Shown in pieces: positions 3,350 through 32,735 of a stretch of 40,083 bases of DNA. The position numbers were made by a program, and so were the translations under genes. Below the pieces are notes generated by a model. The model did not search any database. It saw nothing but the letters and a program-made list of their open reading frames with translations, and was not told where the DNA came from. The stretch comes from an uncultured Methanomicrobiales archaeon (lineage in GTDB: Archaea; Halobacteriota; Methanomicrobia; Methanomicrobiales; Methanospirillaceae). Positions within the stretch are counted from its first letter, which is position 1, and each line of letters starts with the position of its first letter. Location of the stretch: NCBI GenBank assembly GCA_903900025.1, contig CAIULN010000009.1, positions 1-40,083 on the forward strand. The letters run 5' to 3'.

Positions 3350-3550
3350 AAAAGTGTGTATCACTTTTGGGAAATCTTACGTTTAATTTTGATACGAGCC
3401 CAATCTCACAACCGGGGCGAATTTTGTGGAGAGTGACACGAGGGCTGCGGGGGCCTGGTCGAGCGGGGGATTTTCGAAGGGGACGGGTCACGATCCATTC
3501 TTCGGGTAACGTCGGCGGCATTCCTGGAGGCGGAACTCAGGGCCGGATGG

Positions 3551-3582
3551 GGTGCGGGCGGGGGCCGCGGCTCATGGGGGGC
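3551..3582 (-). repeat. Third fragment of the duplicated gene start
   Basis: These 32 bases equal 138-169 exactly and, read on the minus strand, encode the same start MSRGPRPH. Here the frame runs only four more codons (PIRP) to a stop. It is a remnant or recombination scar of the gene seen at 1-162 and 1328-1744, joined to unrelated sequence on both sides. Confidence 0.8.
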
Positions 3583-3596
3583 ATCGACCTCCCGTA

Positions 3597-3958
3597 ATAC
3601 GCCTCGCCCGCTATCGTGTAAGAGAGGAGCCCGTTGCCAGCGAACGCGAGCAGGGTGAAGACCCGCCAGGGTTTTTCAAACTGTACATCCCGCCCGCGTT
3701 CATCGTGCAATTCTCTGCCGGACCGGTGCTGATGGAATGGTACTGCAACGCTGCTGCACTTGCAGGGTCGAGGTTTGTTGCCGGTTCGATCTTCCAGCCG
3801 AGCAGTGTGCTGTAGAATTTTTTTTCACGGCCGATGTTGTCAGCCGGGATCTCGAAGTACTCGATGTTTGGAATAGAGAGAGATGGATACCGGGGAATGT
3901 TGAGGGTTTCGGGTGGATCCCTGTCGCTGCCATCAGTATCGACCGAATTGTCGGACAT
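3597..3958 (-). pseudogene. Truncated VOC (glyoxalase/bleomycin-resistance fold) family gene
   Basis: The minus strand from 3958 encodes an N-terminal stretch typical of VOC-family enzymes: IEYFEIPADNIGREKKFYSTLLGWKI, then a segment ending NAGGMYSLKNPGG at about 3662. The second half of the fold is missing. After NPGG the frame becomes unconvincing, while an overlapping frame reads WRVFTLLAFAGNGLLSY and runs into the MSRGPRPH scrap at 3575, so the gene appears to have been cut and joined to foreign pieces. GC content is core-like. A functional half-domain protein is possible but unlikely. Confidence 0.6.
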
Positions 3959-4030
3959 TTGTCTGATAACGCGGTTCCATCAACCTGTTATCACCCCAGG
4001 GGACAACGGGACTTCCAAGATCAGCACTCC

Positions 4031-4617
4031 CCGACGGTAGCATGTTCCCGGAAGGTGATCCCGGGGCTGAAAATATGTCTTAATCCGGAGAAACCAAGTC
4101 TTATTCGCACAAAAACAGGCATTTTTAAGCATCCTACCGACGTGTTTTCAAAATGTCCTATTAGGTCCTTTCCAGCGGCAGATCGGCGATGCAGATTACC
4201 TGCAGGACGTTGGAACACGGAAAAACCCCAGTTTTTTCTGAAAGTAACACATTTCCACCGACGGACACCGACGATGATTTTGGGTATTGGTCAGGCAGGT
4301 GTCTGACAACCCATACGTACGGGGAGCTATGAAACACCTGGGAGAGAGCAGTACTTTTCCGGACTGCACTCTCCGACGGTGGCACAATCCGGAGCGGGTC
4401 CCTGATGCATCATCGGGGCCTGGATTCCGGGCATAATTCGCAAAAAACCGGGCATAATTCCCACTTTTCCTCCATTTCTCCGACGTAAAAGTCAGGACGC
4501 AAATAGCGCTAATTACGGGCACGATCTTAGGCCGGAACGGGTTGTACTACTCTGGACACAGAAAAACCCCACTTTTCAGGCCCCGGATATGCAAATCTGA
4601 TCGTCAGGTAACGTCGG
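4031..4617. repeat. Degenerate periodic repeat, about 106-132 bp per unit
   Basis: CCGACG occurs at 4031, 4137, 4258, 4373 and 4480, and its reverse complement CGTCGG at 4612, giving spacings of 106, 121, 115, 107 and 132. Four of the five intervals have a T-rich motif about 20-35 bp before the next CCGACG (CATTTTT, AGTTTTTTC, GTACTTTTCC, CCCACTTTTCC), and the fifth has CCCACTTTTC near 4569. GAAAAACCCCA followed by C/G and TTTT occurs near 4219 and 4561, and CCGGGCATAATTC occurs twice at about 4427 and 4449. No gene is convincing here. This reads as an old, decayed tandem array; units were compared by eye only. Confidence 0.4.
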
Positions 4618-4640
4618 GGGTTTTACGGGAAGTGGAGGGA

Positions 4641-4660
4641 AGAGGGGGTGACACCCCTCT
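4641..4660. repeat. Perfect 7-bp inverted repeat before the restriction-modification gene
   Basis: AGAGGGG and CCCCTCT flank the loop GTGACA. It lies about 40 bp upstream of the TATA box of the next gene. A related but shorter GGGG-TGA-CCCC inverted repeat lies after that gene at 7890-7900. It could be a terminator stem, an operator or an island edge; no T-tract follows. Confidence 0.45.
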
Positions 4661-4700
4661 ACCCTTGGATGATGGATAGTAAGAACCACGGAACAAACAT

Positions 4701-4710
4701 TATAAAAATA
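4701..4710 (+). promoter_or_regulatory. TATA box of the type IIG-like gene
   Basis: TATAAAAATA is centred 26-27 nt before ATG 4732, predicting transcription start at that ATG (leaderless mRNA). This decides the start codon against the earlier in-frame candidates at 4648 and 4720, which would lie upstream of the predicted transcript start. Confidence 0.65.
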
Positions 4711-4731
4711 TCCAACTTAATGTTACTATCA

Positions 4732-7725
4732 ATGGAAAAATTCAAAATCACCGAACATACTGAACGTCCAGATTTTATTTCACAATTAAACCAAAAATTA
4801 GGAATTCAATTTCGAATTTTTCAAGAATTAAGTTTAGGGAAAAGTGAGGGGAAAAAGTCACAAGGTGACATTTTCATTTTTCGCTCCGACAAGGTTTCCC
4901 GAATATCTAATGAGGAGATCTCTTTCGATTCTTATGATGAGGCAATCGTAACTGTTATTGAAACGAAAAATCCTCACGAACAAGTTTTGGAAAAACATAC
5001 AGATCAACTAAAAAGGTATTTGAAAAAAGCAAATTGTCGAATCGGATTCATCACAAATTACAAGGATATTCGATTTTTTGAATTTTCGCGTGAATGTCGA
5101 GTGATCGATTCCGATATATATCAAGCGGATAATTTTGAAAATCTCGCGATTTATATTGCTAGGAAGATTGAGGAATCAACAAAAATATCCGTCGGTTATG
5201 ATGCCAATGAAATCATCAAATTTCTTGAAGATACTATCGATGATCTCATGGTCTATACAAAACGTGTAGATGCTGATGTTTGGGAACATATTCTTAGATT
5301 AAGTGATGAATTAGAAAAAGATGCCAAAATCAAAGAACTATCTGAGCAGGAAAAGAAAGAGCGGGATCTCTTTTTTCAACGAAGCGCTGCGTACATCGGT
5401 ATAGCACAAATCTTATTTTATTGCGTTCTCAGAAACCACGTGATTGAACGGAGACTGGATAAACAGTACCAGGATTATCCAATCCTACGTCCATTGGGGA
5501 TTGCTTATGGGATTCCTACTCAGATCCAAGAAATTATTCAAGACATACCAAAAAATAACTACGATTTCAAATCAATCTTTGATGAAAGACATGATATTTT
5601 TTCACGTTTAGATGATGAAGCAGCGGAAGTATTATCGAAAATTGTTAGGAAATTTGAAGGGATCTCCGCATCATTTGTGATCAAACAGAATTTAATCGGA
5701 GAAATTTTCCAACGTTTAATGCCTTTTGAAATCCGCAAAAAATTTGCAGCTTATTATACGCGAAACAAGGCTGCTGAATTACTTTGTGAACTTTCCATTC
5801 TCGATCAAAATCAACTCATTTATGATCCTGCCTGTGGATCAGGAACCCTTCTCGTAAAAGCATACCATAGAAAGAAACATCTGGGTCTGAACCAACACAC
5901 AAAACTTCTTGAACAGATTCATGGTTCTGATATTTCCGATATTGCCGCAATGATGTCTACAGTTAATCTGGCAATCCAGGATCCAGCAAAATGGACTAAT
6001 GAGGTTAACATATATCCTGTCGATGCGTTTGCATTAATCTCCGGTTTAACGCGGTTCATGTCTCATGATCAAATGACCGCGAATGGATTGAAAACAGTTT
6101 CACCCATTTTTTTACCAACACAAGATTATCGCGTCGACGTTCTTTTAGGGAATCCACCTTTTACACGCGGGTCCCGATTGCCGCTCAATACCCGAGATGT
6201 TTTGAAGAATCTGGATATGGTGCGAAAATACAATATCCACTGTGATTTTAAGCGGATCAACCTTTACGCATTTTTCTTATTAATCGCTCCATCATTAGTA
6301 AAAAAAGAAAATGGTTCAATTGCTTTCGTTCTACCAATCGGTGCAATCAATAGTGAAATAATGATAGAGGTATGGAAATCGCTTTTTAATGAAAAATTTG
6401 GAATGAAATATTTGATCGAGGCGTCTGATATTGATGAATCATTTTCAGATTCCCAAGATCAAGAAATTATTGTTGTTCTGGAGAAAAATTACGACAAAGA
6501 TGCACGCTTGGTAAAATTATTCGGTTCCTTTGAATCAAAAGATATCTCTAAACTTGTAAGTGAAATCCAGTCTGTTGATACAACAAGTAAAAAAACCGAT
6601 GATTTTCTAGTTCAGCTTATACCCCAGATCGAACTGCAAAACAAACCCTGCATGGAATGGAGAGTGAATCCAAGTAATATCTTAATTTTATTGTATGACA
6701 AATTCGTTCCTCTGGATAGAAATCAACTGAATGAATTCCAAAAACAAAAGTATTCGACGGATTTAAGCGATCATATTCAAATCGTTACAGAAAATGCATC
6801 TCGTCCTGTCGATTATTGGTTTATCCCCAATAAATTCTGGGAGATCGAAAGAATTGAGAATGAGAAAATTTTCATAACTGCTACGTCATCCAACACGATT
6901 GTATCAAAAAATCCGGACAGTAAAAAAACTCTCGTATTACCAAAAAAAATTTTCACTCCATCAATGGCACGTTCTTTAAAAGAATACACGAATTATCCAC
7001 CGGTAATTCCCGAAAATTTGATCAATGATTTTTATCTGGTTGATGAACAGGGATCACAGTTCGATTTAAAAGAATATTACAAATGGGGTCAAGAAGGGCA
7101 TAAACAAAAATTATTTGGAGAAAGTCATTCGAGTTTTACAGCTGTGAAAAATGCAATAGGACTTGTAAAAAGAATAAATTTTTCAAATTCAAAAACACTA
7201 GCGTTAAGATTCATTTACCCGTTGATGGGAACCCAAATTATTCGCATTGGTTTTTCAGGATTTGAGAGAGAAGATAACGACTTATTTTTCGCTTATTTGA
7301 CGAGTTCAATTTTTTTATTAGATGCATTAGAAAAATCTAGAGCGAGATGTGCTGAATTTGTTCTTATCAATCAAATCGATTTTTTCAAAATCTATCGTTT
7401 TCCCAATTTGAATGAGATCGAAAAGCATACAGAAAAAACAAATAAAATTCTTTCGGCTTCCGACAATTATAATAGCACAACGGCGTTGAAAGATCGCCCG
7501 AGAATCCCAGACCTCATTCAACAAGTGAGAACCAACAAACAACACCTGTTACGAAAATTAGATGAAGCGTGGTTTGAAGCATTGGGAATCCCTGTTTCAT
7601 TCATCGATACCCTTTACCAAGAAATTGAAGAACGACTTTCAGATATCGTCCAGAAAAAAGAAGAGGCTCCAGAAAAAGAATCCGTTATTGTAAAACCACT
7701 AGGTGGGCAACAAAAATTATTGTGA
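4732..7725 (+). CDS. Type IIG-like restriction endonuclease / adenine-specific DNA methyltransferase
   Basis: A 997-residue single-chain protein. The N-terminus carries a likely PD-(D/E)xK nuclease: GDIFIF near residue 45 supplies the Asp and VIETKNP near 75 the E-x-K, followed by QLKRYLKKANCRIGFITN. A helical linker leads to an N6-adenine methyltransferase: YYTRNKAAELL (AdoMet-side motif X), DPACGSGTLL near 364 (motif I) and GNPPFTRG near 472 (motif IV, NPPF). The C-terminal third has the layout of a target recognition domain. It should both cut and protect DNA at its own site; no separate methylase, nuclease or specificity gene is next to it. The gene is AT-rich and probably acquired. A BREX PglX-like role is less likely because no other BREX gene is present. 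The recognition sequence cannot be predicted. Confidence 0.85.
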   Translation: MEKFKITEHTERPDFISQLNQKLGIQFRIFQELSLGKSEGKKSQGDIFIFRSDKVSRISNEEISFDSYDEAIVTVIETKNPHEQVLEKHTDQLKRYLKKANCRIGFITNYKDIRFFEFSRECRVIDSDIYQADNFENLAIYIARKIEESTKISVGYDANEIIKFLEDTIDDLMVYTKRVDADVWEHILRLSDELEKDAKIKELSEQEKKERDLFFQRSAAYIGIAQILFYCVLRNHVIERRLDKQYQDYPILRPLGIAYGIPTQIQEIIQDIPKNNYDFKSIFDERHDIFSRLDDEAAEVLSKIVRKFEGISASFVIKQNLIGEIFQRLMPFEIRKKFAAYYTRNKAAELLCELSILDQNQLIYDPACGSGTLLVKAYHRKKHLGLNQHTKLLEQIHGSDISDIAAMMSTVNLAIQDPAKWTNEVNIYPVDAFALISGLTRFMSHDQMTANGLKTVSPIFLPTQDYRVDVLLGNPPFTRGSRLPLNTRDVLKNLDMVRKYNIHCDFKRINLYAFFLLIAPSLVKKENGSIAFVLPIGAINSEIMIEVWKSLFNEKFGMKYLIEASDIDESFSDSQDQEIIVVLEKNYDKDARLVKLFGSFESKDISKLVSEIQSVDTTSKKTDDFLVQLIPQIELQNKPCMEWRVNPSNILILLYDKFVPLDRNQLNEFQKQKYSTDLSDHIQIVTENASRPVDYWFIPNKFWEIERIENEKIFITATSSNTIVSKNPDSKKTLVLPKKIFTPSMARSLKEYTNYPPVIPENLINDFYLVDEQGSQFDLKEYYKWGQEGHKQKLFGESHSSFTAVKNAIGLVKRINFSNSKTLALRFIYPLMGTQIIRIGFSGFEREDNDLFFAYLTSSIFLLDALEKSRARCAEFVLINQIDFFKIYRFPNLNEIEKHTEKTNKILSASDNYNSTTALKDRPRIPDLIQQVRTNKQHLLRKLDEAWFEALGIPVSFIDTLYQEIEERLSDIVQKKEEAPEKESVIVKPLGGQQKLL

Positions 7726-20838: not shown

Positions 20839-23499
20839 ATGCCACATCTACCCCCGCACCAAAAGGGACGTAACCTGCCTGAACTCCTCGCACCCGCCGG
20901 TTCACCCCGGGCATTCCGGGCAGCGATGGCTGCAGGGGCAGATGCGGTCTACCTGAGCGGGAAACGGTTCGGTGCGAGGAGCTATGCTCAAAACTTCACC
21001 GATGAAGAGATTGCAGATGCTGTTGTCACTGCCCATACAAGGGGCGCCAGGGTCTACGTAACTGTGAATACCCTTATCCACGACCGGGAGCTGGCAGCTG
21101 TTGGCGAATATCTCATCTGGCTCTATTCCATTGGCGTTGATGCCGTCCTTGTGCAGGACATCGGGGTCGCTGCACTCGCCCGTTCAATAGTTCCCGACCT
21201 GCCGCTTCACGCATCAACCCAAATGACGATCCACACCGCTGATGGAGTGCGCTTCGCGGCTGATCAGGGGTTCTCCCGGGTTGTGCTCGCCCGTGAGCTC
21301 TCCCTTTATGAGGTACAAGGAATTGGCAGGGAAACGGCGGATCTGGACATCGGACTCGAGGTGTTCGTCCACGGGGCACTCTGTTACTGCTATTCGGGCC
21401 AGTGTCTTCTCTCATCTGTGATCGGCGGCAGGAGCGGCAACCGGGGGATGTGCGCGCAGCCCTGCAGGAAACCCTATACCATGGTAACCGGGGAACCGGA
21501 TGCATACGGACGCCCGGTCAAGCTGAAGGAATTCCCGCTGCCCGACCACTACCTCCTCTCCCCAAAGGATTTGTGCACGTACCCGTATCTTGACCGCCTC
21601 GTGCAGTCACCCGTTATCTCACTGAAGATTGAAGGGCGGATGAAATCCCCTGAATATGTCGCTATAGTCGTTTCAATATACAGGAGGGCACTCGATGGAA
21701 TCGCTTCAGGAATATGGACTTTGCAGGATACTGATATGCAGGATCTCGCGGTTGCGTTCAACCGGGAGTTTACGCGAGGGTACCTGTTTGGAGAACGGCA
21801 CGGCGCGCTGATGGGCAGGAAGCAGCCGGACAACCGAGGGCTCCTGATCGGGACAGTAACAGGATGCGACACACGCAGCGGGGAAGTAACCATCAGGCGA
21901 ACCGTTCAAAGAGAACTATCTGCCGGCGACGGGCTCCTGTTCCGGAACCCTCACCGTGCAGATAAAGAATCCGGGTTCCCGCTCAATGCCAGGCCCCTTC
22001 AGGAGAACGGGATGATCAGGCTCATTGCTCCGTTCCCGGTCCGGTGCGGTGATGATGTCTACCTCACATCAAGTACCGGCCTTACCGAGAGGGCGCACCG
22101 GGTCATCCGGACTCCCCTTTCTCTTGCCCGCCGCCCGCTCCCGATCGATCTCTCCGTCAGGATAAGCAACAGAGGAATCCCGTTCCTTGAGGGAATAATC
22201 GATGCTGGCGGGGGACACCGTGTTCCTGTCACCTGTACCTCTGCTGTCAGGTTCTTGCCTGCCCGCACCCGTCCCCTGACCGCAGAACAGGTGATGACAG
22301 GCATGAAAAAAACCGGGGGGACACCGTTTGCTATCCGGAGCATTTCCATGGAATATGACGGGAAGATGTTCGTACCGGTCGCGGAACTGAACCGGATACG
22401 CCGGGAGTTCCTTGCACTGGCAGAAAATAAGCTCGTTACTGCCCTGCGGCCAACTGAAGAATCTTTCGGGCGGGCGAAAAAGCGATGGGCAGCAGTCGCA
22501 CCCGGCATCGATACCCCTCCCATAACCCCGCCATGTCACCGGACGGAAAACCAAAAGATTGCAGTCTATGCTGACCGGATTGACGTTGTAAAAGCAGCCG
22601 TATCTGCCGGATGCGACAGGGTCTATTTCGAGGCAGGCCTCAGTGCAGGTGCATATCCATCCCGCATGAACGCCCACGTTGAGTTTGATGATACCCAGCT
22701 CAGGGACGCTCTTGCTGTCTGCAGAGGGGCAGGCATCCCCCTCGTCTGGAAACTCCCGCGGATCATAAAGGCACCTGAACGTGAATTCATCCTTTCGGTT
22801 CTCCCGGGTCTCTACAAGGACGGACTGCCTGCATTCATGGTCGAAAGTCCCGGCACTGCACGAGCCATCGGAAGTGCGTTGCCTGGTATGGACATCTATG
22901 GCTCAACCGGGTTAAACATATTCAATCAGGTAACGGTCAGAAACCTGGCGAATCAGTTCTTCCTGCTGACGATCTCGCCGGAACTTTCCGGGGCCGGGGT
23001 TGAGGACCTCATCCGGCTGGCCCGGACGGAACGGTGCGATACCAAGCTTGAACTGATCGTTCAGGGAAGTGCTGAAGCAATGGTTTCAGAGGACTGCCTT
23101 CTCCAGATCCTGTCAGGCTGCAACGAAGGGAAACAAAAAGGTTGTACTTCCCGCGGGTTCTTTGGGATCAGGGACAGCACCGGCCGGGTATTTCCCGTGC
23201 ACACCGATGGTCTGTGCCGGACGCATGTGTTCAATGCGGTGGAGACCTGTCTTCTCGACCACATCCCATTCCTTCTGCAGGCGGGGATCGATTCGGTGGC
23301 CATTGATGCACGCGGCAGGACTGCTGCCTATGCCAGAGAGATGGTGCACATCTACCGGGATGCAATTAGTAAAGCCCGTCAGCACAACACGGGAATCCGT
23401 GAGGGTCTAATCCCTCTTAAAAAACGGGTAAAAGAGATAGCCCTTGGCGGGATCACGGCTGGTCATTTTGAACGGGGACTAAAAAGTCACGAGACCTGA
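20839..23499 (+). CDS. U32 peptidase-family protein (RlhA-like, with DUF3656-type region)
   Basis: An 886-residue protein. Residues about 13-240 form the U32 barrel: ELLAPAGSPRAFRAAMAAGADAVYLSG, QDIGVAAL, and the signature EVFVHGALCYCYSGQCLLSS with further cysteines in GNRGMCAQPCRKPY; these four family cysteines may hold an Fe-S cluster. A middle region (about 290-550) fits the DUF3656-type extension of large U32 proteins, and a last region (about 575-870) resembles a second, degenerate barrel. In bacteria such proteins (RlhA, TrhP) hydroxylate rRNA or tRNA bases rather than cut peptides; an RNA-modifying role is likely here but not proven. Start ATG 20839 is preceded by GAGGATC. Confidence 0.82.
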   Translation: MPHLPPHQKGRNLPELLAPAGSPRAFRAAMAAGADAVYLSGKRFGARSYAQNFTDEEIADAVVTAHTRGARVYVTVNTLIHDRELAAVGEYLIWLYSIGVDAVLVQDIGVAALARSIVPDLPLHASTQMTIHTADGVRFAADQGFSRVVLARELSLYEVQGIGRETADLDIGLEVFVHGALCYCYSGQCLLSSVIGGRSGNRGMCAQPCRKPYTMVTGEPDAYGRPVKLKEFPLPDHYLLSPKDLCTYPYLDRLVQSPVISLKIEGRMKSPEYVAIVVSIYRRALDGIASGIWTLQDTDMQDLAVAFNREFTRGYLFGERHGALMGRKQPDNRGLLIGTVTGCDTRSGEVTIRRTVQRELSAGDGLLFRNPHRADKESGFPLNARPLQENGMIRLIAPFPVRCGDDVYLTSSTGLTERAHRVIRTPLSLARRPLPIDLSVRISNRGIPFLEGIIDAGGGHRVPVTCTSAVRFLPARTRPLTAEQVMTGMKKTGGTPFAIRSISMEYDGKMFVPVAELNRIRREFLALAENKLVTALRPTEESFGRAKKRWAAVAPGIDTPPITPPCHRTENQKIAVYADRIDVVKAAVSAGCDRVYFEAGLSAGAYPSRMNAHVEFDDTQLRDALAVCRGAGIPLVWKLPRIIKAPEREFILSVLPGLYKDGLPAFMVESPGTARAIGSALPGMDIYGSTGLNIFNQVTVRNLANQFFLLTISPELSGAGVEDLIRLARTERCDTKLELIVQGSAEAMVSEDCLLQILSGCNEGKQKGCTSRGFFGIRDSTGRVFPVHTDGLCRTHVFNAVETCLLDHIPFLLQAGIDSVAIDARGRTAAYAREMVHIYRDAISKARQHNTGIREGLIPLKKRVKEIALGGITAGHFERGLKSHET

Positions 23500-23571
23500 A
23501 CCGGTAAAAGATCCCAAATCTTCATCATTTTTCAACCGGAATTCTTGATTATAGCAGGGGTGTCTTAAAAA

Positions 23572-24240
23572 ATGTCATCACCGTTGATCCTCGTCAACCT
23601 CAAAACGTACAAAGAAGGAATGGGTTCCCGCGCCCACGCGATCGCAACCGCGGCGCAGGCAATCGCACAGGAAAGTGGCGTTTCTATCGGCATTGCTCCG
23701 TCGTATATTGACCTTCACCCGATCGCCCGGCATTTCATGATCCCGGTCTACGCGCAGCACGTCGATGGTTCCGAACCCGGCGCCCACACCGGGCAGATCA
23801 CTGCGCATGCGATCAAGGCCGCCGGGGCGAGCGGTTCACTCGTCAACCACTCGGAGCGGCGCCTCACCCTTGCTGATATCGAGGCATCGGTGAAAGCGCT
23901 CCAGATGCAGAAGCTGGTTTCAGTGATCTGTTCAAACAACGAGATCACAAGCGCCGGGGCAGCCGCCCTTGCCCCGGACTATGTTGCCATCGAGCCCCCG
24001 GAGCTGATCGGCAGCGGGGTCTCGGTATCAAAAGCGAACCCGGAGATTATCAGGAGATCAGTCGCCGCGGTCCGTGCTGTAAACCAGAAAGTGAAGGTTC
24101 TGACAGGAGCAGGTATCCAGTCCGGGGAATGTGTGAAGATCGCCGTTGACCTTGGTACTGACGGGGTATTGCTTGCTTCCAGTGTTGTAAAAGCTCAGGA
24201 ACCGGCAGTGGTGTTGCGGGATCTCGTGTCAAAGCTCTGA
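23572..24240 (+). CDS. tpiA: Triosephosphate isomerase, archaeal type
   Basis: A 222-residue isomerase interconverting dihydroxyacetone phosphate and glyceraldehyde 3-phosphate. Catalytic residues are visible: Lys in [10 protein letters not shown], His in VNHSERR and Glu in [11 protein letters not shown], with the phosphate loops GSGVSVSK and GAGIQSGE. Its short length compared with about 250 residues in bacteria is normal for archaea, which form tetramers. It has its own spacing from the U32 gene (about 70 bp) and is followed by a T10 tract. Confidence 0.94.
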
Positions 24241-24314
24241 TACCTGAATATAGTAAAAATGTTCCGGATTCGGATACCACTTATTTGGATTCCATGGGCT
24301 CTGTAGAAAACATA

Positions 24315-24324
24315 TTTTTTTTTT
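24315..24324 (+). terminator. T10 terminator tract after tpiA
   Basis: Ten consecutive T about 75 bp after the tpiA stop, a typical archaeal termination signal on the plus strand. It lies immediately before a GC-rich hairpin. Confidence 0.5.
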
Positions 24325-24333
24325 AACGTTCTT

Positions 24334-24348
24334 GGGGGCTTTGCCCCC
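24334..24348. repeat. GC-rich hairpin GGGGGC-TTT-GCCCCC
   Basis: A perfect 6-bp stem with a 3-nt loop in the 290-bp gap between convergent tpiA and the HTH-CBS gene. On the plus strand the T-tract precedes rather than follows the stem, so it is not a bacterial-style terminator in that direction; on the minus strand it is followed by an A-run. It may be a dispersed genomic element. Confidence 0.45.
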
Positions 24349-24532
24349 GCCACTTTGGCAACCCTTTTTGCGATTTCTGTGGAAAACCGTTTCAGCATTA
24401 TCTCTTTTTGCCGATGTTTGATTAGGGATTTCTAAAGAGCCGATTCCACGAATAATTGAAAAAGGGTCAGGTGTTATTCCAGCCCCCATTTTTTCTTGGG
24501 TATTCGGTAGTATCAGCTTGATCGATATTGTC

Positions 24533-25087
24533 TCACGTGATCAGGGAAATTAAATCGTGCTTGGTAACCACACCCACAACCACCCCACCGTCTATGACAA
24601 GCACCGCATGGTTCTGCTGCAGGATATTGACGACCGTCTCAACATCCATATCCGGGGGCACGGTGGGAAAACCTGGTTCGGTAAAATCCCGCACATAGAA
24701 AGGCTGGACCCTGTGCAAACGCTGCTGCTCGATTGCTTTCATTATGACCGCTTCTGATATGCAGCCGATGGGTATCCCATTATCGATTACGGGAAGCTGG
24801 GAGATGTTATTTTTTTCAAAGATGTCAAGAGCCCGGATGATCGTATCGTCAGGCTGGACAGCGATCACCGGTGTATGTATGATCTGGACTGCGGTAATCC
24901 TCTTTTGCCCTGCACTGTTCAGTACCGTGATGATCTTGTTGAGCGTGCTGACCCGGGGGTCCACACTACCCGCTTCAATCCGGGCAACCATTGACTGACT
25001 GATACCGGCGCGCCGGGCAAGCTCAGTCTGCTTCATACCGAGCATCTCGCGCCGGTTTCGCAACTCATCCGGAGTCGGAATATGCAT
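24533..25087 (-). CDS. XRE-type HTH regulator with two CBS domains
   Basis: A 184-residue predicted transcriptional regulator. Residues about 8-60 are a Cro/XRE helix-turn-helix (LRNRREMLGMKQTELARRAGISQSMVARIEAG), followed by two CBS domains: about 68-125 (TPVIAVQPDDTIIRALDIFEKNNISQLPVID) and about 128-184 (FPTVPPDMDVETVVNILQQNHAVLVID, GVVVGVVTKHDLISLI). CBS pairs bind adenosine nucleotides or S-adenosylmethionine, so DNA binding is probably controlled by such a ligand. This HTH-CBS fusion is common in euryarchaea. Minus-strand TTTATAA at 25104-25110 lies close before the start. The regulon is not evident from the neighbours. Confidence 0.85.
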   Translation of the reverse strand: MHIPTPDELRNRREMLGMKQTELARRAGISQSMVARIEAGSVDPRVSTLNKIITVLNSAGQKRITAVQIIHTPVIAVQPDDTIIRALDIFEKNNISQLPVIDNGIPIGCISEAVIMKAIEQQRLHRVQPFYVRDFTEPGFPTVPPDMDVETVVNILQQNHAVLVIDGGVVVGVVTKHDLISLIT

Positions 25088-25287
25088 GATGTATTACTCA
25101 TGGTTATAAATGGTAATGAACCTTATTCATTTCTGGCCGTTTCATGCCATATTCAGACCGGGTTTTTTTAATTGTGCATTTCTTTTTTGTTCGTAAACCA
25201 CCCTACAACCCAAAAATTCTATTAACCGATCTCGTGCATAGTACATATAACAGATAATCCACGATCCAAGTGGATTAGTGTTCTTTC

Positions 25288-25524
25288 ATGGGCGATAGTC
25301 AAATAAACGACGATAACGATGATGAGAACCATCCTGGTCTCTCAGTCTTTCCTCAAACAGATTTCTGTGATATCCCCCCGCTGGCAACCGGGTGTGCATG
25401 GATTTTGCCAGGTGCAGTCCTGCACCCTGTTTCCATAAATCCAACAGGGATTTTCCTCCAAAAAACACCTGATGATACCGGTATAATCCAAGCACATGGG
25501 CGGGGTGGACTGAACCTCTCATGA
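25288..25524 (+). CDS. Possible small protein upstream of the RLAN-like gene
   Basis: A 78-residue frame (starts MGDSQINDDNDDENHPGL) of unknown function, acidic at the N-terminus, with two cysteines and a neutral rest. Support is only that its stop overlaps the next start as ATGA, and that it begins a little after possible promoter sequence (ACATATAAC at about 25242-25250). No ribosome binding site is clear and no family is recognised; it could be non-coding leader. Confidence 0.35.
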   Translation: MGDSQINDDNDDENHPGLSVFPQTDFCDIPPLATGCAWILPGAVLHPVSINPTGIFLQKTPDDTGIIQAHGRGGLNLS

Positions 25525-26333
25525 ACGAACGAAAGGACGGTACAAGAACCATGGATCCAAACGAGATCCCTGTTCCACCTCTGGCAGGACCACTCCGCCA
25601 GCTCCCTGCAACCGGCAGAACCGGGTTACTCTCGGTCCAGCAGACAATATCCACATACCTCCCTCCAAAAAAGAATGGCACAAGAACCCAGCCAAAGCGC
25701 GACCAGGCACTGCTTAAAGATTCACTGGTTGTTATCAGACGCAATGATACCCATCATGTCATCTCTGAAAATTATTACTATAAGACAGAACCCTATTATA
25801 CGATCCTCAGGCTTGAACTGGAGGGCAAACGGGTTGAACCGAGCAGCAGCGCGGTCCTCGACGCGTATGTTATCCCCATCTGCCTGTCACGAGCGGCATC
25901 TGCAGGAATTCCGGTCTGCGAATGGGGGATATCCCAGGCATACGTCCCGCTCCCCGCGATCCTGTACGGGCTGAACTATTTTTCAACAACGCTGGACTAC
26001 TTCATCGTCGATGACAACGAAAAGGCAAAGGATGTGATCAAACACATCACCAACAACGGAAAATATCCATTCTGTTACCAGAAGTATCCGGAAGGATCTG
26101 AGATCCTCACCTGCACCGCGATATTTGGCCAGACCACCGGTGCGTCCACCCCTGTTGCCGATTATGCACAAAAAATTTACGAGCTTTTCCGTATCCCGCT
26201 TGTAAAAATGGTCTTTATTATGACGGGCGCTTTGTATGCCCTTTCCTCTCTCTCACCAACCCGCTATGCACAGCTCTCTGAAGGTGAACGTGCCCTGCTT
26301 TCTGCATACCTCTCAAACCAGGAGTTCCTATGA
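25521..26333 (+). CDS. RLAN-like protein (RimK-like ATP-grasp N-terminal domain), stand-alone
   Basis: A 270-residue protein. Residues about 65-260 resemble the RLAN domain, which normally precedes a RimK-like ATP-grasp ligase in one chain: LVVIRRNDTHHVISENYYYKTEPYYTILRLELEGKRVEPSS, then PAILYGLNYFSTTLDYFIVDD, and an end pattern RIPLVKMVFIMTGALYALSSLSPTRYAQLSEGERALL. Here it is separate but overlaps the ATP-grasp gene by 4 bp, so the two proteins probably form one complex. The first 60 residues are proline-rich and weakly conserved in look; ATG 25551 (MDPNEIPV) is an alternative start. RLAN has no known catalytic activity; a role in substrate presentation is inference. Confidence 0.62.
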   Translation: MNERKDGTRTMDPNEIPVPPLAGPLRQLPATGRTGLLSVQQTISTYLPPKKNGTRTQPKRDQALLKDSLVVIRRNDTHHVISENYYYKTEPYYTILRLELEGKRVEPSSSAVLDAYVIPICLSRAASAGIPVCEWGISQAYVPLPAILYGLNYFSTTLDYFIVDDNEKAKDVIKHITNNGKYPFCYQKYPEGSEILTCTAIFGQTTGASTPVADYAQKIYELFRIPLVKMVFIMTGALYALSSLSPTRYAQLSEGERALLSAYLSNQEFL

Positions 26334-27202
26334 GCAGGCTGGGAATTTTTGTGGATAGGAAGACACTATCCAATTCTGAACAGCTCAATGCGCTCATCAG
26401 GTGCCGGGACGTTGCCGAAAATCTGGGACATTCCGTTGAGTTCATCTTTCCTGTCGACATCAACAAAATTGAAAAGGTGGACGCACTCTTCATCCGCGCC
26501 CGCACCGACCCGATGAACATCACGTATGTCGCTGCACGGATGGCCAGTCTCCACGGGATTCCGGTCATTGATGATCCCCGCTCTATCCAGATCTGCTCCG
26601 ATAAGATCAACATGTATTCTCACCTGATCAGGGAGCACGTGTCCGTCCCCAGGACCGTTTTCCTGTCCCGCAACGATCTCACCATAGAGCACGTCGCACG
26701 CCTTTTTGATGACTTGGGATCACCGCTTGTGGTTAAGGAACCCTCAACTTCGTTCTCCCTTCGTGTGGAAAAAGTCCATGATGTCGCGGAATTTTTCAGG
26801 GTGGCGCGACGGTTCATAAAAATGTCAGACTGGATCGTAGTGCAACAGTTCATCGAGAGCAAATACGACTGGAGAGTGGGGGTGCTGGACGGGAAACTCC
26901 TGTACGCCTGCAAATACACAATACCCTCCGTGACCTTCAAGATTCAGGCGTCCGTGAACGGTCACCTTGTCTACTGCGGGGTTGAAAGCGTTCCCCCCGG
27001 TCATGTTCCGCCCCATGTAATCCAGCTTGGGATAGACGCGGCAAACGCTATCGGCAGGGGGCTCTACGGAGTTGATATCAAAAATAATAACGGGGATTCC
27101 TATGTCATCGAAGTGAACGACAATCCCTCACTTGAGAGCGGGGAGGATACCTGTTACCCGTCAGTCTATCACACACTCATATCACACCTCCTGCGGAAGT
27201 AA
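26330..27202 (+). CDS. RimK-like ATP-grasp ligase
   Basis: A 290-residue ATP-grasp enzyme that should activate a carboxylate as acyl phosphate and join it to an amine, thiol or amino acid. Seen: an N-terminal Rossmann-like part (LGIFVDRKTLSNSEQL, ALFIRARTDPMNIT), IDDPRSIQICSDKINMYSHL, the ATP-grasp Lys regions PLVVKEPSTSFSLRV and WIVVQQFIESKYDWRVGVLDG, and the metal-binding end YGVDIKNNNGDSYVIEVNDNPSLESG. Start overlaps the RLAN-like stop (ATGA); the GCS2-type gene follows within a few bases. The substrate is unknown; related gene sets are proposed to make small peptides or peptide tags. Confidence 0.83.
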   Translation: MSRLGIFVDRKTLSNSEQLNALIRCRDVAENLGHSVEFIFPVDINKIEKVDALFIRARTDPMNITYVAARMASLHGIPVIDDPRSIQICSDKINMYSHLIREHVSVPRTVFLSRNDLTIEHVARLFDDLGSPLVVKEPSTSFSLRVEKVHDVAEFFRVARRFIKMSDWIVVQQFIESKYDWRVGVLDGKLLYACKYTIPSVTFKIQASVNGHLVYCGVESVPPGHVPPHVIQLGIDAANAIGRGLYGVDIKNNNGDSYVIEVNDNPSLESGEDTCYPSVYHTLISHLLRK

Positions 27203-27209
27203 TGTGCCA

Positions 27210-28319
27210 ATGACGATTGGAACTGAACACGAATACTCCATCAATAATCCCGGATTCACCCCACAGCCGGTGTCGGACCAGATCATAAAAAAGATCTGCG
27301 GGCGGGTGGAAAACGAGATCCTCTTTGGAGATGTGAAACTGGGAAAGGAACTCCAGAAAACAGTACTCGAATTCATTCCCCGCAGGCCACACCATGAACT
27401 TGCACCCCTCGAACAGCAGCTGTATCACGGTATCCAGAAATTCTCCCGCATATTCCACGACACGTACCGCCTCCTCGGGCTTGGCATGCACCCGACACTC
27501 ACCCTTGACAAAACCGCCGTCTGGGATTATGATGAGGGGGAATATTATGATGTCTATGACCGGTTGTTTAATATCCGGCAGCATGGCTGGCTGAACATAC
27601 AGTCGCTCCAGATCAACCTGTCATATACCCATGAGCAGGACATGGTGTATGTCTACAACCGCATCCGTACACTGCTGCCGTACCTTGTCGCTGTCACTGC
27701 ATCATCACCGATGGTTGAAGGGCGGCTGACCGGCAATGCAGACAACCGCCTGATCTTCTACCGGGAGAACCAGAAGGAGATTCCCCGTATCTGCAACCGG
27801 ATCATTCCCGAACCAATACGTGATGTGGCTCAGTATCATGCGATGCAGGAGGAGTTTTTTTCAGAACTCCGTGCACGGGGTGCAGGAATCCTTTGCGAGG
27901 AATGGGTGAATTCCGGCGGGATCATCATACGGTTCTCCCGAAAATGCCTTGAGATCAAAGCGCTTGACGAGCAGGAATGCGTGCACTCTGATATGGCAGT
28001 CTGTGCATTCATCCGGGCTCTGTTACGCTGCAAAAATCTCCCGGTGATCACCCGGCGGGATGAACTCCTCTTTCTGCTGGACGAGGCAATCAGAGATGGC
28101 ACTGAAGGACTGCACGCCGATCTCAAACAGTTGTACACAAGCGCATGGCAGCACGCAACCGATGATGAACGGGTGTACCTGCCGGTAATCAGGGATCGGA
28201 TCGAAAACGGGAGCCTTGCTGAGCAGATGAGAGACCGACTTGAGCATGGCGAAGAGATCACCACCATCATGGGGGATATGGCACGGTGTCTGGAGGAAAA
28301 CCATCCCTATGGCAGCTGA
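27210..28319 (+). CDS. GCS2-type carboxylate-amine ligase (glutamate-cysteine ligase family 2)
   Basis: A 369-residue member of the glutamine-synthetase-like GCS2 family, which forms amide bonds between an acidic amino acid side chain or alpha carboxylate and an amine using ATP. Seen: MTIGTEHEYSINNPGF (metal/ATP Glu residues), LGLGMHPTLTLDK, LQINLSYTHEQD, TASSPMVEGRLTGNADNRLIFY and KCLEIKALDEQECVHSD. ATG 27210 is chosen since EHEY must be near the N-terminus; GTG 27204 is possible. It follows the ATP-grasp gene by 7 bp. Two different amide-forming enzymes side by side suggest successive couplings in one product; its identity is unknown. Confidence 0.8.
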   Translation: MTIGTEHEYSINNPGFTPQPVSDQIIKKICGRVENEILFGDVKLGKELQKTVLEFIPRRPHHELAPLEQQLYHGIQKFSRIFHDTYRLLGLGMHPTLTLDKTAVWDYDEGEYYDVYDRLFNIRQHGWLNIQSLQINLSYTHEQDMVYVYNRIRTLLPYLVAVTASSPMVEGRLTGNADNRLIFYRENQKEIPRICNRIIPEPIRDVAQYHAMQEEFFSELRARGAGILCEEWVNSGGIIIRFSRKCLEIKALDEQECVHSDMAVCAFIRALLRCKNLPVITRRDELLFLLDEAIRDGTEGLHADLKQLYTSAWQHATDDERVYLPVIRDRIENGSLAEQMRDRLEHGEEITTIMGDMARCLEENHPYGS

Positions 28320-28399
28320 ATATCGAGCCTTCGCTTTTTTAAGGAACAACGGACTTAACCAACCCGGTAAAGAATTGTAGTGAGGAGTTGAGGACACTG

Positions 28400-30454
28400 G
28401 TGACTCATGTGCTTATACGGGAGGCTGAGGGGTACGAACTGTTGAAAACCTGCGGGATTCCTGTACCACGGTATGCCATTACCGGTTCATCATCTGAAGC
28501 AGCAGATATGGCGGACCGGATTGGATATCCCGTAGTACTCAAAGTCATTTCGCCGCAGATTATTCACAAGAGCGATTCGGGCGGTGTGATTGTTAATATC
28601 GGCAGCGCAGCAAAAGCCCGCGAAGCGTATGATGCAATCATACATGCAGTGGCTCAATTCAACCCATCAGCAGTGATCGAAGGAGTGATGATCGAACAGC
28701 AGCTGCCTCCCGGGCTTGAGCTGATTGTTGGCGGAAAGACCGACCCTGCATTTGGGAAGGTTCTCACGATTGGGATCGGCGGGACACTGGTAGAGCTTCT
28801 CAGGGACGTATCCACCTGTGTCCTCCCGATTGACAGAAAAGAGATTGAGGTCATGATCCATGAACTGCAGGGGTATCCCCTGATCGCAGGGTTCCGCAGG
28901 GAACCGGCGCGGGATGAGCAGGCATTGATCGGGATTATTGAGTCCGTTGCCCGCCTCTTTATCTCACGTCCCGATGTTGTTGAATTTGACATTAATCCCA
29001 TCATACTCTATGAGAAAGGGGCCTGTGCTGTGGATGCACGCTTTTATGTAAGCGACCACGCTCCCCCTGAAATCCCGCGCCCGAAGAAACAAGCCATATC
29101 CGGATTGCTCACGGTGAAGTCCATCGCTGTTGTCGGAGCATCGCAGGAGCCAAATAAAGTAGGCTATGCAATTGTCCGGAACCTCCTCACCTTCCCCGGT
29201 GCACTCTATCCGGTGAACCCCAAACACGCCATGATTATCGGAAGAAAGGCTTACCCGACGCTGGGATCCATACCAGAACCTGTCGATATCGCTGTCATCG
29301 CAGTACCGGCCCGCATCGTCCCGCAGATCATTGAAGAAGCAGGTAAAAAGGGCATCCCGCTTGCCATCATCGTCTCCTCCGGGTTCCGGGAGACTGGAGC
29401 AGAGGGAAAAATACATGAGGATCAAGTGCTCTCCATTGCCAACCGTTATGGCATCCGGATCATGGGCCCCAACTGTCTGGGACTCATGCTTCCCCATCAG
29501 GGCATCAATACCACATTTGATCCGGTGTCCCCGAAACCGGGCAAGATTGCGTTCATATCGCAGAGCGGTGCGATCATCTCCACTATCGTGGACTGGAGCC
29601 TCCCTGAGGGGATCGGATTTTCCGCAGTGATAAGTGTGGGCAACCAGGCAGACCTTACCTTTGACGATTTCATCGAGTACGCTGGCGCCGATCCCAAAAC
29701 GAACGCTATCATCCTGTACATCGAACAGATCCATGACGGAAAACGGTTCATGGATATGGTTCGTTCCATCACGCCCAAAAAACCCATTGTGGCAATCAAG
29801 TCAGGGTCATCGAAGATCGGGAAGAAAGCGGCATCCTCCCATACCGGATCCCTTACCGGAAGCAACGAAGTCTACCTCGCAGCATTCCGGCAGGGCGGTG
29901 TGATCCCTGTCCAGTCAATCCGGGAAGCATTCCAGGCTGCAGAACTGCTCTCATCGGAAGGTTATCCCAAAGGGGTACGGGCAGTGGTCATCACAAATGC
30001 CGGCGGATTTGCCGTGCTCTCCTCCGATTATGCTGAACGGTTCGGAATCGAGTTAATAGAGTTCCCCCGTGCCCTCATTGCCGAACTCGACACGATCCTG
30101 CCGGCAGACTGGAGCCGCGAAAATCCAATTGACATGGTAGGGGATTCAGGTGTTGACCGGTTCGCCCGTACATTTGACGTGATGATAAAAAACCAGGATC
30201 TCTGGGACATTGCCTTTGTTATCGCAGTTCCCTCCGCAATCTCCGATCCTCTCCGTGTGGCAAACGAACTCGTCCGTTTCTCAAAGCATACCCAAAAGAT
30301 GATCGTAGGGTGCATGATCGGCGGCGATTCCATGAAGACCCCTTTGCGCATCCTGCGTGATGCAAACATCCCCAATTTCCCCGACCTTGAAGATGCATTC
30401 AGGGCTGTGGGAAACATATGCAGGAACACGGGCATGTGTTGTCGGCTCAAATAG
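28400..30454 (+). CDS. ADP-forming acyl-CoA synthetase (acetate-CoA ligase type), beta-alpha order
   Basis: A 684-residue enzyme of the NDP-forming acyl-CoA synthetase family, converting acyl-CoA, ADP and Pi to acid, CoA and ATP or the reverse. Residues about 5-225 are the ATP-grasp (beta) part: GIPVPRYAI, GYPVVLKVISPQIIHKSDSGGV, GRKTDP-like GGKTDPAFGK and EFDINPIILY. Then the CoA-binding Rossmann part (SIAVVGASQEPNKVGYAIVRNLL) and succinyl-CoA-synthetase-like parts with SQSGAI and the phospho-His segment SSHTGSLTGS. The order beta then alpha is reversed compared with common alpha-beta single chains. Start: GTG 28400 has GAGG about 5 nt upstream; TTG 28388 is also possible. It follows the ligase cluster by about 80 bp. 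Confidence 0.87.
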   Translation: MTHVLIREAEGYELLKTCGIPVPRYAITGSSSEAADMADRIGYPVVLKVISPQIIHKSDSGGVIVNIGSAAKAREAYDAIIHAVAQFNPSAVIEGVMIEQQLPPGLELIVGGKTDPAFGKVLTIGIGGTLVELLRDVSTCVLPIDRKEIEVMIHELQGYPLIAGFRREPARDEQALIGIIESVARLFISRPDVVEFDINPIILYEKGACAVDARFYVSDHAPPEIPRPKKQAISGLLTVKSIAVVGASQEPNKVGYAIVRNLLTFPGALYPVNPKHAMIIGRKAYPTLGSIPEPVDIAVIAVPARIVPQIIEEAGKKGIPLAIIVSSGFRETGAEGKIHEDQVLSIANRYGIRIMGPNCLGLMLPHQGINTTFDPVSPKPGKIAFISQSGAIISTIVDWSLPEGIGFSAVISVGNQADLTFDDFIEYAGADPKTNAIILYIEQIHDGKRFMDMVRSITPKKPIVAIKSGSSKIGKKAASSHTGSLTGSNEVYLAAFRQGGVIPVQSIREAFQAAELLSSEGYPKGVRAVVITNAGGFAVLSSDYAERFGIELIEFPRALIAELDTILPADWSRENPIDMVGDSGVDRFARTFDVMIKNQDLWDIAFVIAVPSAISDPLRVANELVRFSKHTQKMIVGCMIGGDSMKTPLRILRDANIPNFPDLEDAFRAVGNICRNTGMCCRLK

Positions 30455-30486: not shown

Positions 30487-32169
30487 TCAGAGACTGATCT
30501 TTTTTAATATCTGGCCATTCTTGAAAAGGGTGATCCCACCGCCACTCTGCGACACCACAATGCCAACTGCTTTGGTCACATGTGTCATGGCAGCGACTGA
30601 ATTATGGCGGGTTCCCATCCCTTGGGGAAGATTCACGCCGCTTGTATCAACGGTAATATACCTTCCTGACGCTTCGATGAAACCATCACCGCTCACGACA
30701 AATGCACCGTCAAGCTGGGCAAACTCCTTGATGTTTTCCTTGAGATCAGCATTGGTCACGATCCGCATTTCCGGAGGATGGCCTTCAAATGAATTCAGCA
30801 TGATCTGGCGGGACTTCCCCATGACATTTTCAGCATCGCCGATCAAAAATGTTGTCCCGACCGCTTTGCCCTCCCTGCCCTCAACAGAGATCTCGGTGCA
30901 GATATGGAAGACAGCATCAAAGACATCCTCCCGGATATCAGTATCCGCCACCACCTGATCCTTCCATGTGTCCGTGCTGATCCTGACCTCTATGCTCCCA
31001 CGGCGGCGGTCGGTGATGTCGTTTCCGATGCAGAGCACCTCGACAATCCGCCCCTCTTCATCCCGGATTGCCTTGTTGATCCAGGCAATCCAGACGCGGT
31101 CACCATTCCTGCGGACATTCTCCATCACATTGATTGCGTACCCTTCTGCATTAAACCCGAGATCGTTTGCCATCATCGAGAGATCATGACCGGAACGTGT
31201 CTTTGCCGGGATAATGGTGCCGACAACATTTTTCCCGATCACATCATCAGAATTGTAATCGAAAAACGAGAGTGCAAATGTATTGAAAAATGTGATTGTT
31301 CCCTGCGTATCAATCCGGATGATGATGCTCTGGGTATTCTGCATCATCTCCCGGTACTTCGCTTCACTTCCCTTGAGTGCATCAGCAAGCTTTTTGCGCT
31401 CGGAAATGTCTGTCACAACAAATGTACCGCCTTTCGCAACATCGTGGGGGTCAAGTGCGAGCACCCGTACCTGGCAGGGGACTGGCGATGTATCTTTTCT
31501 CACCAGATCGAATTCCATTCTTGCGGAACCGTCAATTTCCCGTTTGACCTCGAGATCACGGAGCACCTGCTCATATTCTTCGGGTTTATAAAACAGCACC
31601 CTCAAATCCTTGCCGAGCAGCTGGCTCTCCACATATCCGAGCATTGAGAGGAGGGGACGGTTCACCCATTCGATGACATGGTTTCGCATCTGGAATATGC
31701 CAAGCGGTGTGGCGGAAAGTATAGCAGAAAGCTGGTCGTTCTGCGCCTTGATCTCCCGGTCTGCCCGATGACGCAGCATCGTCTGTTTCACGAGCATCAC
31801 CAGGTCCCCCAGCTGTGTGCGTCCGTCACCCCCTTTTGGGAGCGGCAGTTCGGTGCCATGAATCACCTCAGCAATCACGACTTTGTTCTGGCCTCTGCGG
31901 GAGATCATAATAAAAGGCGTTGTGTTGCCCTGCGATTTGAGGTATTTTAAAAATTCGATCCCGTTCATGTCGGACACGAACTCGATCCCATTAATATCCG
32001 GCACCTGCTCGTAGCAGACGATCACATCGTACGTCCGGTTCTTCAGCTTTTCAAGTGCCTGTTTTGTGGAGTGGACGATGTCGAGCCGGATTTCTCCCGA
32101 TTTTTCAAGGACAGAACGGGCATGTACCATCAGCTCGGAATTGTCATCCACAAAAAGAACAGCGATCAT
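30487..32169 (-). CDS. Receiver-PAS-PAS-diadenylate cyclase signalling protein
   Basis: A 560-residue soluble signalling protein. Residues 1-125 are a response-regulator receiver fold (MIAVLFVDDNSEL), but the phospho-acceptor Asp is replaced by Tyr53 (VIVCYEQVPD), and a 9-residue duplication gives INGIEFVSDMNGIEF (59-73). Two PAS domains follow, about 135-255 (LSAILSATPLGIFQM, ending GGTFVVTDISERKK) and 262-385 (REMMQNTQSIIIRID, ending LCIGNDITDRR). The C-terminus is a DisA-type diadenylate cyclase domain: LDGAFVVSGDG near 485 (DGA motif), LPQGMGTRHNSVAAMTHVT near 512 (RHR-like region, here RHN), and AVGIVVSQSGGGITLFKNGQI. It should make cyclic di-AMP from ATP under control of the sensor part. 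ATG 32169 has GGAG 7 nt upstream. Confidence 0.8.
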   Translation of the reverse strand: MIAVLFVDDNSELMVHARSVLEKSGEIRLDIVHSTKQALEKLKNRTYDVIVCYEQVPDINGIEFVSDMNGIEFLKYLKSQGNTTPFIMISRRGQNKVVIAEVIHGTELPLPKGGDGRTQLGDLVMLVKQTMLRHRADREIKAQNDQLSAILSATPLGIFQMRNHVIEWVNRPLLSMLGYVESQLLGKDLRVLFYKPEEYEQVLRDLEVKREIDGSARMEFDLVRKDTSPVPCQVRVLALDPHDVAKGGTFVVTDISERKKLADALKGSEAKYREMMQNTQSIIIRIDTQGTITFFNTFALSFFDYNSDDVIGKNVVGTIIPAKTRSGHDLSMMANDLGFNAEGYAINVMENVRRNGDRVWIAWINKAIRDEEGRIVEVLCIGNDITDRRRGSIEVRISTDTWKDQVVADTDIREDVFDAVFHICTEISVEGREGKAVGTTFLIGDAENVMGKSRQIMLNSFEGHPPEMRIVTNADLKENIKEFAQLDGAFVVSGDGFIEASGRYITVDTSGVNLPQGMGTRHNSVAAMTHVTKAVGIVVSQSGGGITLFKNGQILKKISL

Positions 32170-32735
32170 ACGGGTTCTCCGCAACCAACCGACGGTACAC
32201 TTCTCATATGAGGTGGAGATTGGTGCAATAAATAGTTGTTGAGAATGAACAGATGATGCATGACGGTAATAATCCGGAGAAGAGAAAAATTGACTGGCGA
32301 AGATTATCTGCGGGGGAGAGATAGCCCTTTATAAAACATGTGTTGAGACTTTGTTTTGGACTTAAAAGAGACTGCCACGAGCCCATGATGATGATTACAG
32401 AAATCCGGCTTGCTATCGGTTTTCCCCATTCACATCAGCAGGATTCCCAGCGGCACCCGGCATCCTGCGAAGAATACTTCTCCTGTAACCAGGGAAAGAA
32501 TGGGGATTCATTTGTCAACGGTGATACCCTGTATAAAAAAATTGTATAGGTTCTAATCAGGAGCGCAGCACCAGGAATTTCAGAACCAGGGCAGCGTGCA
32601 GGTATTGGAACTCCATTGTACCTGTTCACAATGCAGGAAACCATGTGCCCGCCATCTCTGCGATAACCATTGGATACCGTTTCATATCCAATGAAATTCA
32701 AAGAGCGGACAAAACGGTTTTAAAAGGGATAGGGT
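32170..32735. other. Intergenic region upstream of the cyclase gene
   Basis: About 565 bp without a convincing gene, between two minus-strand genes. It contains a minus-strand TTTTATAAAG near 32331-32340, a TATA candidate about 160 nt before the cyclase start, and a perfect inverted repeat at 32668-32693. Short open frames on both strands lack family features. Confidence 0.35.
32668..32693. repeat. Perfect 9-bp inverted repeat (possible operator or terminator stem)
   Basis: CATTGGATA and TATCCAATG flank an 8-nt spacer (CCGTTTCA). It lies 43 bp past the stop codon of the winged-helix gene on the minus strand. No T-run follows in that direction, so it is not a classic terminator; the 17-bp centre-to-centre spacing of the arms would suit a dimeric regulator. 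Confidence 0.5.

Follow-up and report, generated by a model that had tools for sequence, protein, structure and literature searches.

In bacteria, RLAN domains occur fused to RimK-type ATP-grasp ligases, and on a plasmid of Legionella adelaidensis the genes for such a fused RLAN-RimK protein, a GCS2-type gamma-glutamyl ligase and an N-formylglutamate amidohydrolase (FGase) are consecutive. RLAN-linked ligases are widespread: a scan of bacterial and archaeal genomes confirmed at least 581 proteins related to the fused one, among them proteins of Bacteroidetes, Planctomycetes, Gammaproteobacteria, Nitrosomonas and others. In the best 80 of these at least 581 loci, a GCS2 gene is nearby in 62, nearly always directly downstream, and an FGase gene in 40. 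Amidoligases of this sort were reportedly linked to unknown peptide metabolites by Iyer et al. in 2009, a study cited in PMC12239564 and PMC8939145, so that the general idea of such a link, also put forward for the DNA considered here, had already been published. Here we describe a related locus in a 40,083-nucleotide (nt) stretch of an uncultured Methanomicrobiales archaeon (contig CAIULN010000009.1, hereafter the window; archaeal genome of 1.75 Mb), in which an earlier reading of the sequence, the original prediction, had placed a cluster of four genes encoding an RLAN-like protein, an ATP-grasp ligase, a GCS2-type ligase and an ADP-forming acyl-CoA synthetase. The archaeal operon is a split form of the known bacterial system, because the bacterial fused RLAN-RimK protein likewise sits beside GCS2. 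It is a real, conserved system carried by many methanogenic archaea, and the split, a cysteine-cluster partner, a small open reading frame (micro-ORF) and a leader hairpin set the archaeal variant apart from the bacterial kind.

All four protein families named in the original prediction are confirmed by Pfam, with scores for the window proteins of 32 bits for PF14401 (cut-off 25), 39.8 for PF08443 and 135 for PF04107. The features of the locus are as follows (lengths in amino acids, aa).

25255..25277, + strand: leader hairpin with arms TAATCCAC-loop-GTGGATTA, an operon-specific cis element 10 nt 5' of the micro-ORF start
25288..25524, + strand: acidic micro-ORF of 78 aa, beginning MGDSQINDDNDDENHP..., whose stop overlaps the RLAN ATG as ATGA
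25521..26333, + strand: stand-alone RLAN protein of 270 aa (PF14401; predicted model), a probable degenerate ATP-grasp pseudoenzyme
26330..27202, + strand: RimK-type ATP-grasp ligase of 290 aa (PF08443), catalytic residues intact
27210..28319, + strand: GCS2-type gamma-glutamyl ligase of 369 aa (PF04107)
28388..30454, + strand: fused ADP-forming acyl-CoA synthetase (PF13549, PF13607, PF13380), a neighbour outside the system

The close spacing or coupling that had been proposed is borne out, as the RLAN and ATP-grasp genes share an ATGA overlap and 7 nt separate the ATP-grasp stop from the GCS2 start. The true GCS2 start is the ATG at 27210 and not the mechanically assigned TTG at 27132, since relatives align from the ATG.

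Of the 199 class genomes, an identical set of 57 encodes RLAN and ATP-grasp, and 56 encode GCS2, with the genes side by side; the genomes that deviate are G187 and G132, where contigs end, and G008, estimated to be 98% complete, which encodes RLAN and ATP-grasp but no GCS2. In three genera, genomes with a completeness of 96% or more (G037, G045, G084) lack all three genes, indicating that the genes were lost as a block. Their order is kept in the loci of relatives as far as the fetched stretches reach, and the contiguous order is also found in Methanothrix-, Archaeoglobus- and Methanoregula-type genomes, where these and similar genus labels stand for relatives presumed to be Methanoregula boonei, Methanoregula formicica, Archaeoglobus fulgidus, Methanothrix soehngenii and Methanocella. 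The unit thus travels and is lost together, which supports the proposed co-occurrence and speaks against this GCS2 being a conventional enzyme that works by itself. The acyl-CoA synthetase, in contrast, does not belong to the set as first named: 191 of the 199 genomes encode it whether or not the cluster is present, it adjoins GCS2 in only two genera, and four genomes (G084, G066, G113, G127) have close copies and no cluster. It was therefore ruled out as a member and is regarded as a housekeeping neighbour.

The ATP-grasp protein is the most conserved of the set (76-89% in the two nearest genera), and K92, K136, Q172, D180, W181, R182, D249, E261 and N263 are invariant in 31 sequences. Its nearest solved structures are ArgX, LysX and RimK, and it shares 36% identity with the RimK family protein of Legionella. 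The window GCS2 keeps the GTEHE motif and the conserved columns of its family, has plant glutamate-cysteine ligase and YbdK as its nearest solved structures, and belongs to the same subfamily as the Legionella GCS2 (33% identity, E 7e-46). Scored against the glutamate-cysteine ligase equivalogs it reaches at most 48.9 bits, far below all of the cut-offs of 176 to 463. Two side observations concern these enzymes. The Methanothrix-type ATP-grasp proteins (L092-L099) carry a C-terminal extension of ∼50 residues that is not seen in other families and whose end (YxIDF-like) looks conserved. In genus g33 the GCS2 catalytic motifs are gone (L050, 5639-6631, and G171:C6), and L050 is also without part of the middle; the ATP-grasp gene stays conserved beside the motif-less copy, which suggests that this GCS2 is decaying or repurposed.

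In most relatives the usual fourth gene is a different one, encoding a PF03692 (YkgJ-type) cysteine-cluster protein of ∼165 aa between ATP-grasp and GCS2, in which Cys 13, 16, 20, 21, 62, 70, 80 and 104 are invariant or nearly so. The resulting four-gene module is found in Methanothrix-type (f22), Archaeoglobus-type (f9, with varied gene order) and Methanoregula-type genomes. This gene was not visible from the window sequence because the window lineage has lost it: genome-wide, it is absent from the window genome and its nearest sisters, and a relocated copy elsewhere in the window genome was considered and rejected on the same search. A decayed copy is present in G009, and the gene is missing from G008, G119 and G171. 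The PF03692-like cysteines of FliB bind a [4Fe-4S] cluster (PMC8598068), and by this analogy it is plausible that the cysteine-cluster protein carries an iron-sulfur (Fe-S) cluster. The losses are nested, the cysteine-cluster gene going first and GCS2 next, which places the RLAN/ATP-grasp pair at the core, with GCS2 as the next layer and the cysteine-cluster protein as an accessory; no complete locus was seen with RLAN alone or with an ATP-grasp of this family alone. The nested losses thereby give an order of dependence among the genes of the operon.

To our knowledge the Pfam entry for RLAN calls its fold uncharacterised, and by sequence RLAN has no relative in the PDB. A template-free AlphaFold2 model built from 36 archaeal RLAN sequences has a predicted local distance difference test (pLDDT) of 90.1 and a predicted template-modelling score (pTM) of 0.84. 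Compared with the PDB by Foldseek, it matches best ArgX in complex with LysW (3vpb; E 8.8e-10, template-modelling score 0.62), and 461 PDB matches have E ≤ 0.001, of which the 50 listed are ATP-grasp proteins; PsnB, LysX/ArgX, RimK, D-Ala-D-Ala ligase and synapsin are among the matches. The model of the cysteine-cluster protein, taken through an identical pipeline, gave no Foldseek match below E 1. When 80 bacterial RLANs are added to the archaeal profile, hhalign aligns 126 columns collinearly with the ATP-grasp profile (score 30.1, E 0.002), compared with a maximum of 21.1 in 40 column shuffles and 16.2 for a reversed profile, and in the expected register, with RLAN 'GKRVEPSSSAVLDAYVIPICLSRAASAGIPV...PAILYGLNYFS' on ATP-grasp 'GIPVIDDPRSIQICSDKINMYSHLIREHVSVP...PLVVKEPSTSFS'. 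A strong hhalign match between RLAN and ATP-grasp was discarded because it arose from overlapping cuts, and the rlb/grb match is the same artefact. The RLAN positions aligned to the ATP lysines K92 and K136 are not lysine, and LSSLxP, as judged by eye, stands where the Mg-binding EVNDNP (E-x-N motif) would be expected. On the model and the weak profile match, RLAN is very likely a degenerate ATP-grasp domain and probably a pseudoenzyme partner that does not bind ATP; this predicted fold, with the ATP-site residues lost, looks new. The stand-alone archaeal RLAN looks less eroded, because it keeps a stretch of ∼55 residues that is missing from bacterial RLANs. The split of RLAN from the ATP-grasp domain noted in the original prediction holds for the archaeal loci seen, where the two are separate genes and not fused as in bacteria, and it makes RLAN a separate, purifiable protein whose role can be tested directly. 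The model also yields a sharp prediction, namely a protein that should have an ATP-grasp fold and should fail to bind ATP.

Position 25288, given originally as the start of the cluster, is not the start of RLAN, whose frame begins at 25521; it stands as the opening of the separate 78-aa ORF in another frame. A short ORF lies 5' of RLAN in nearly all genomes examined of the window's genus and the Methanoregula-type genus (∼29, a few of them from other genera), with an N-terminal motif of approximately MNExLxxDDDDEENHRxFSxF, and in most cases its end overlaps RLAN as ATGA or TGATG. Purifying selection acts on the motif, the proportions of synonymous (pS) and nonsynonymous (pN) differences being 0.82 and 0.21 between the window and L032 and 0.66 and 0.14 between L043 and L045. 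The tail is nearly neutral and its C-terminus is not conserved; it is free of stops (0 in 1068 codons versus 56 and 34 in the other frames), and since the micro-ORFs were picked as open, their exact ending at RLAN is a stronger point than this absence of stops. A chance ORF was considered, as protein searches failed at first, and was rejected because the motif and the RLAN overlap are conserved. A frameshifted RLAN N-terminus was likewise rejected, as stops in the RLAN frame just 5' of 25521 leave no read-through. Acidic N-termini resembling the micro-ORF occur in Methanocella- and Archaeoglobus-type RLANs, an observation that we treat as a lead only.

The hairpin lies 9-10 nt 5' of the micro-ORF ATG, with outer arms TAATCC/GGATTA, and folds in silico; 28 of 31 relatives have one at the corresponding position. 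Its inner pairs covary, 53 of 75 being Watson-Crick compared with a mean of 32 and a maximum of 50 in 10,000 shuffles that do not control for relatedness, and seven of the eight genomes searched have a single copy of the pattern, which lies at this operon. At gathering level Rfam gives no family match at the hairpin, which was therefore rejected as a known RNA family; two chance-level matches fall elsewhere. An operator for a dimeric protein is less likely because loop length and spacing vary and the inner pairs covary, and the element is most simply read as an RNA hairpin that acts in cis and is followed by a coupled leader ORF. The conserved, coupled acidic micro-ORF and the operon-specific covarying hairpin look new, neither being part of the original prediction, and together they provide a regulatory handle on the operon.

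By analogy with characterized ligases, the operon may encode an ATP-dependent pathway to a small gamma-glutamyl peptide or a gamma-glutamyl-modified acceptor, a proposal to which, as a whole mechanism, we give an even chance of being right. GCS2 would activate the side-chain carboxylate of glutamate and join it to an amine, giving gamma-Glu-X, and the RimK-type ATP-grasp enzyme would then activate a carboxylate of gamma-Glu-X, or of an acceptor from another source, and add an amino acid, in the manner of GshA followed by GshB. RLAN would be the obligate, non-ATP-binding partner of the ATP-grasp enzyme, forming a subunit of its own in archaea and one half of a fused tandem in bacteria, and would probably serve in substrate binding or in completing a dimer. 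The cysteine-cluster protein, probably with an Fe-S cluster, would assist in most archaea, the window lineage doing without it, and synthesis would be controlled by the leader hairpin and the translationally coupled micro-ORF. The product could possibly be a compatible solute, a cofactor or a tag. Methanoregula, Methanothrix and Archaeoglobus include cultured species, which makes a comparison of metabolites feasible.

Two points weigh against this gamma-glutamyl pathway. RLAN and ATP-grasp occur without GCS2 in the Methanocella-like and f36 genomes tested and in G008, and in G119 and G171 GCS2 has decayed, with its motifs lost, despite the retention of RLAN and ATP-grasp; the GCS2 product is therefore not the sole substrate everywhere, and this pattern suggests that the pair can also accept a substrate of other origin. 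As to the RLAN fold, the archaeal RLAN profile gave no sequence match with the archaeal ATP-grasp profile, and even the enriched match has a probability of only 13.7% on hhalign's own scale.

Alternatively, RLAN and ATP-grasp might add residues to a protein or carrier, as RimK does to S6 and ArgX/LysX to LysW, with the micro-ORF product possibly serving as carrier or guide, and with GCS2 acting on the released or attached group. The nearest solved relatives of the ATP-grasp enzyme, the ArgX-LysW complex as top fold match of RLAN, and an operon that opens with a small acidic translated ORF are in keeping with such modification, which we nevertheless judge unlikely: the unconserved C-terminus and near-neutral tail of the micro-ORF are unlike a C-terminal acceptor, the EDWGE end of LysW is not seen in it, and GCS2 enzymes normally use free glutamate. 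Bolder and more doubtful still is an assembly line in which the dead RLAN and the active ligase form an obligate pair and build gamma-glutamyl groups on the micro-ORF product as carrier or guide peptide, under an RNA switch of its own. A thiol system, in which GCS2 would make gamma-Glu-Cys, the ATP-grasp pair would make a glutathione-like thiol and the cysteine-cluster protein would use it for metal or redox handling, is quite unlikely. It would account for plant glutamate-cysteine ligase being among the nearest solved relatives of GCS2, for the cysteine-cluster partner in most archaeal loci and for a thioredoxin-like DUF255 gene upstream in Methanothrix-type genomes, but GCS2 lies far under every glutamate-cysteine ligase cut-off, the cysteine-cluster gene is dispensable and the DUF255 link is confined to one family.

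The ligases might instead tailor coenzymes by lengthening the glutamate side chain of methanofuran, F420 or methanopterin, and there is precedent in the RimK-like enzymes MyfB and MptN, which extend the glutamate chains of methylofuran and tetrahydrosarcinapterin, respectively (PMC8141765). The window ATP-grasp protein also matches the MptN and CofF models, distantly. Nevertheless, the operon is patchy among close methanogen relatives and the module is shared by Legionella, Bacteroidetes and Planctomycetes, which as a rule have none of the three coenzymes, leaving this explanation very improbable. A peptide osmolyte tied to a neighbouring diadenylate cyclase has the slimmest chance of those considered. 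On the minus strand at 30487-32184 the window encodes a response regulator-PAS-PAS-DisA_N protein, a putative two-component-controlled diadenylate cyclase in which the RHR-type motif reads RHN. Most loci of the family have this gene or a homologue next to the cluster, in two different gene backgrounds, and cyclic di-AMP governs osmotic balance in other prokaryotes; shared synteny accounts for the link equally well, however, and the cyclase is not near the cluster in f4, f9, f14 and f22.

Other genes recur around the cluster. A CitMHS/ArsB-type anion permease is found nearby in Archaeoglobus-type and f4 genomes (L087, L088, L090, L047-L051) and an amino-acid permease in other genera of the family; export of the product by these permeases is possible. 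In the f36 loci without GCS2 (L085, L086) a GNAT-like acetyltransferase gene adjoins RLAN/ATP-grasp, comparable to the bacterial GNAT-C39 association (Azospirillum, L103). Upstream of the operon, at 20839-25087, lie genes for an 886-aa protein, triosephosphate isomerase and a CBS-HTH regulator, a placement kept in two genera. Further away, window positions 2069-7725 (GC 32-47%) encode a SIR2-like protein and a 1025-aa methylase/restriction-like protein (N6_Mtase, HSDR_N_2; PADLOC match mads_2), likely a defence island. Scans for tRNA and sigma-70 yielded nothing useful.

Compared with known systems, the gamma-glutamyl pathway proposed here resembles glutathione synthesis by GshA and GshB in pairing a gamma-glutamyl ligase with an ATP-grasp ligase, and differs from it in the RimK/LysX-like type of the ATP-grasp enzyme, the RLAN partner and a GCS2 below all of the glutamate-cysteine ligase equivalog cut-offs. 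ArgX/LysX with LysW, together with RimK, are the solved structures closest to the ATP-grasp enzyme and, in fold, to RLAN, whereas here no LysW-like carrier was found and GCS2 is linked. Graspetide systems, which make omega-ester- or amide-linked ribosomally synthesized and post-translationally modified peptides, likewise set an ATP-grasp enzyme beside a short ORF with a conserved N-terminus and a variable tail, and their PsnB is among the RLAN fold matches; the micro-ORF tail, in contrast, is nearly neutral and without a repeated Asp/Glu/Thr/Ser core, and GCS2 is present. The bacterial RLAN-RimK/GCS2/FGase operons agree with the archaeal operon in catalytic families, GCS2 subfamily and GCS2 adjacency. 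They differ in FGase, which in archaea is unlinked or absent (missing from 40 archaeal loci and the window, with a single unlinked copy in three of nine genomes, the window genome included), and in the cysteine-cluster gene that accompanies archaeal GCS2. Finally, archaeal RLAN and ATP-grasp are separate, mostly overlapping genes, and the archaeal RLAN is longer and retains more of the ATP-grasp layout.

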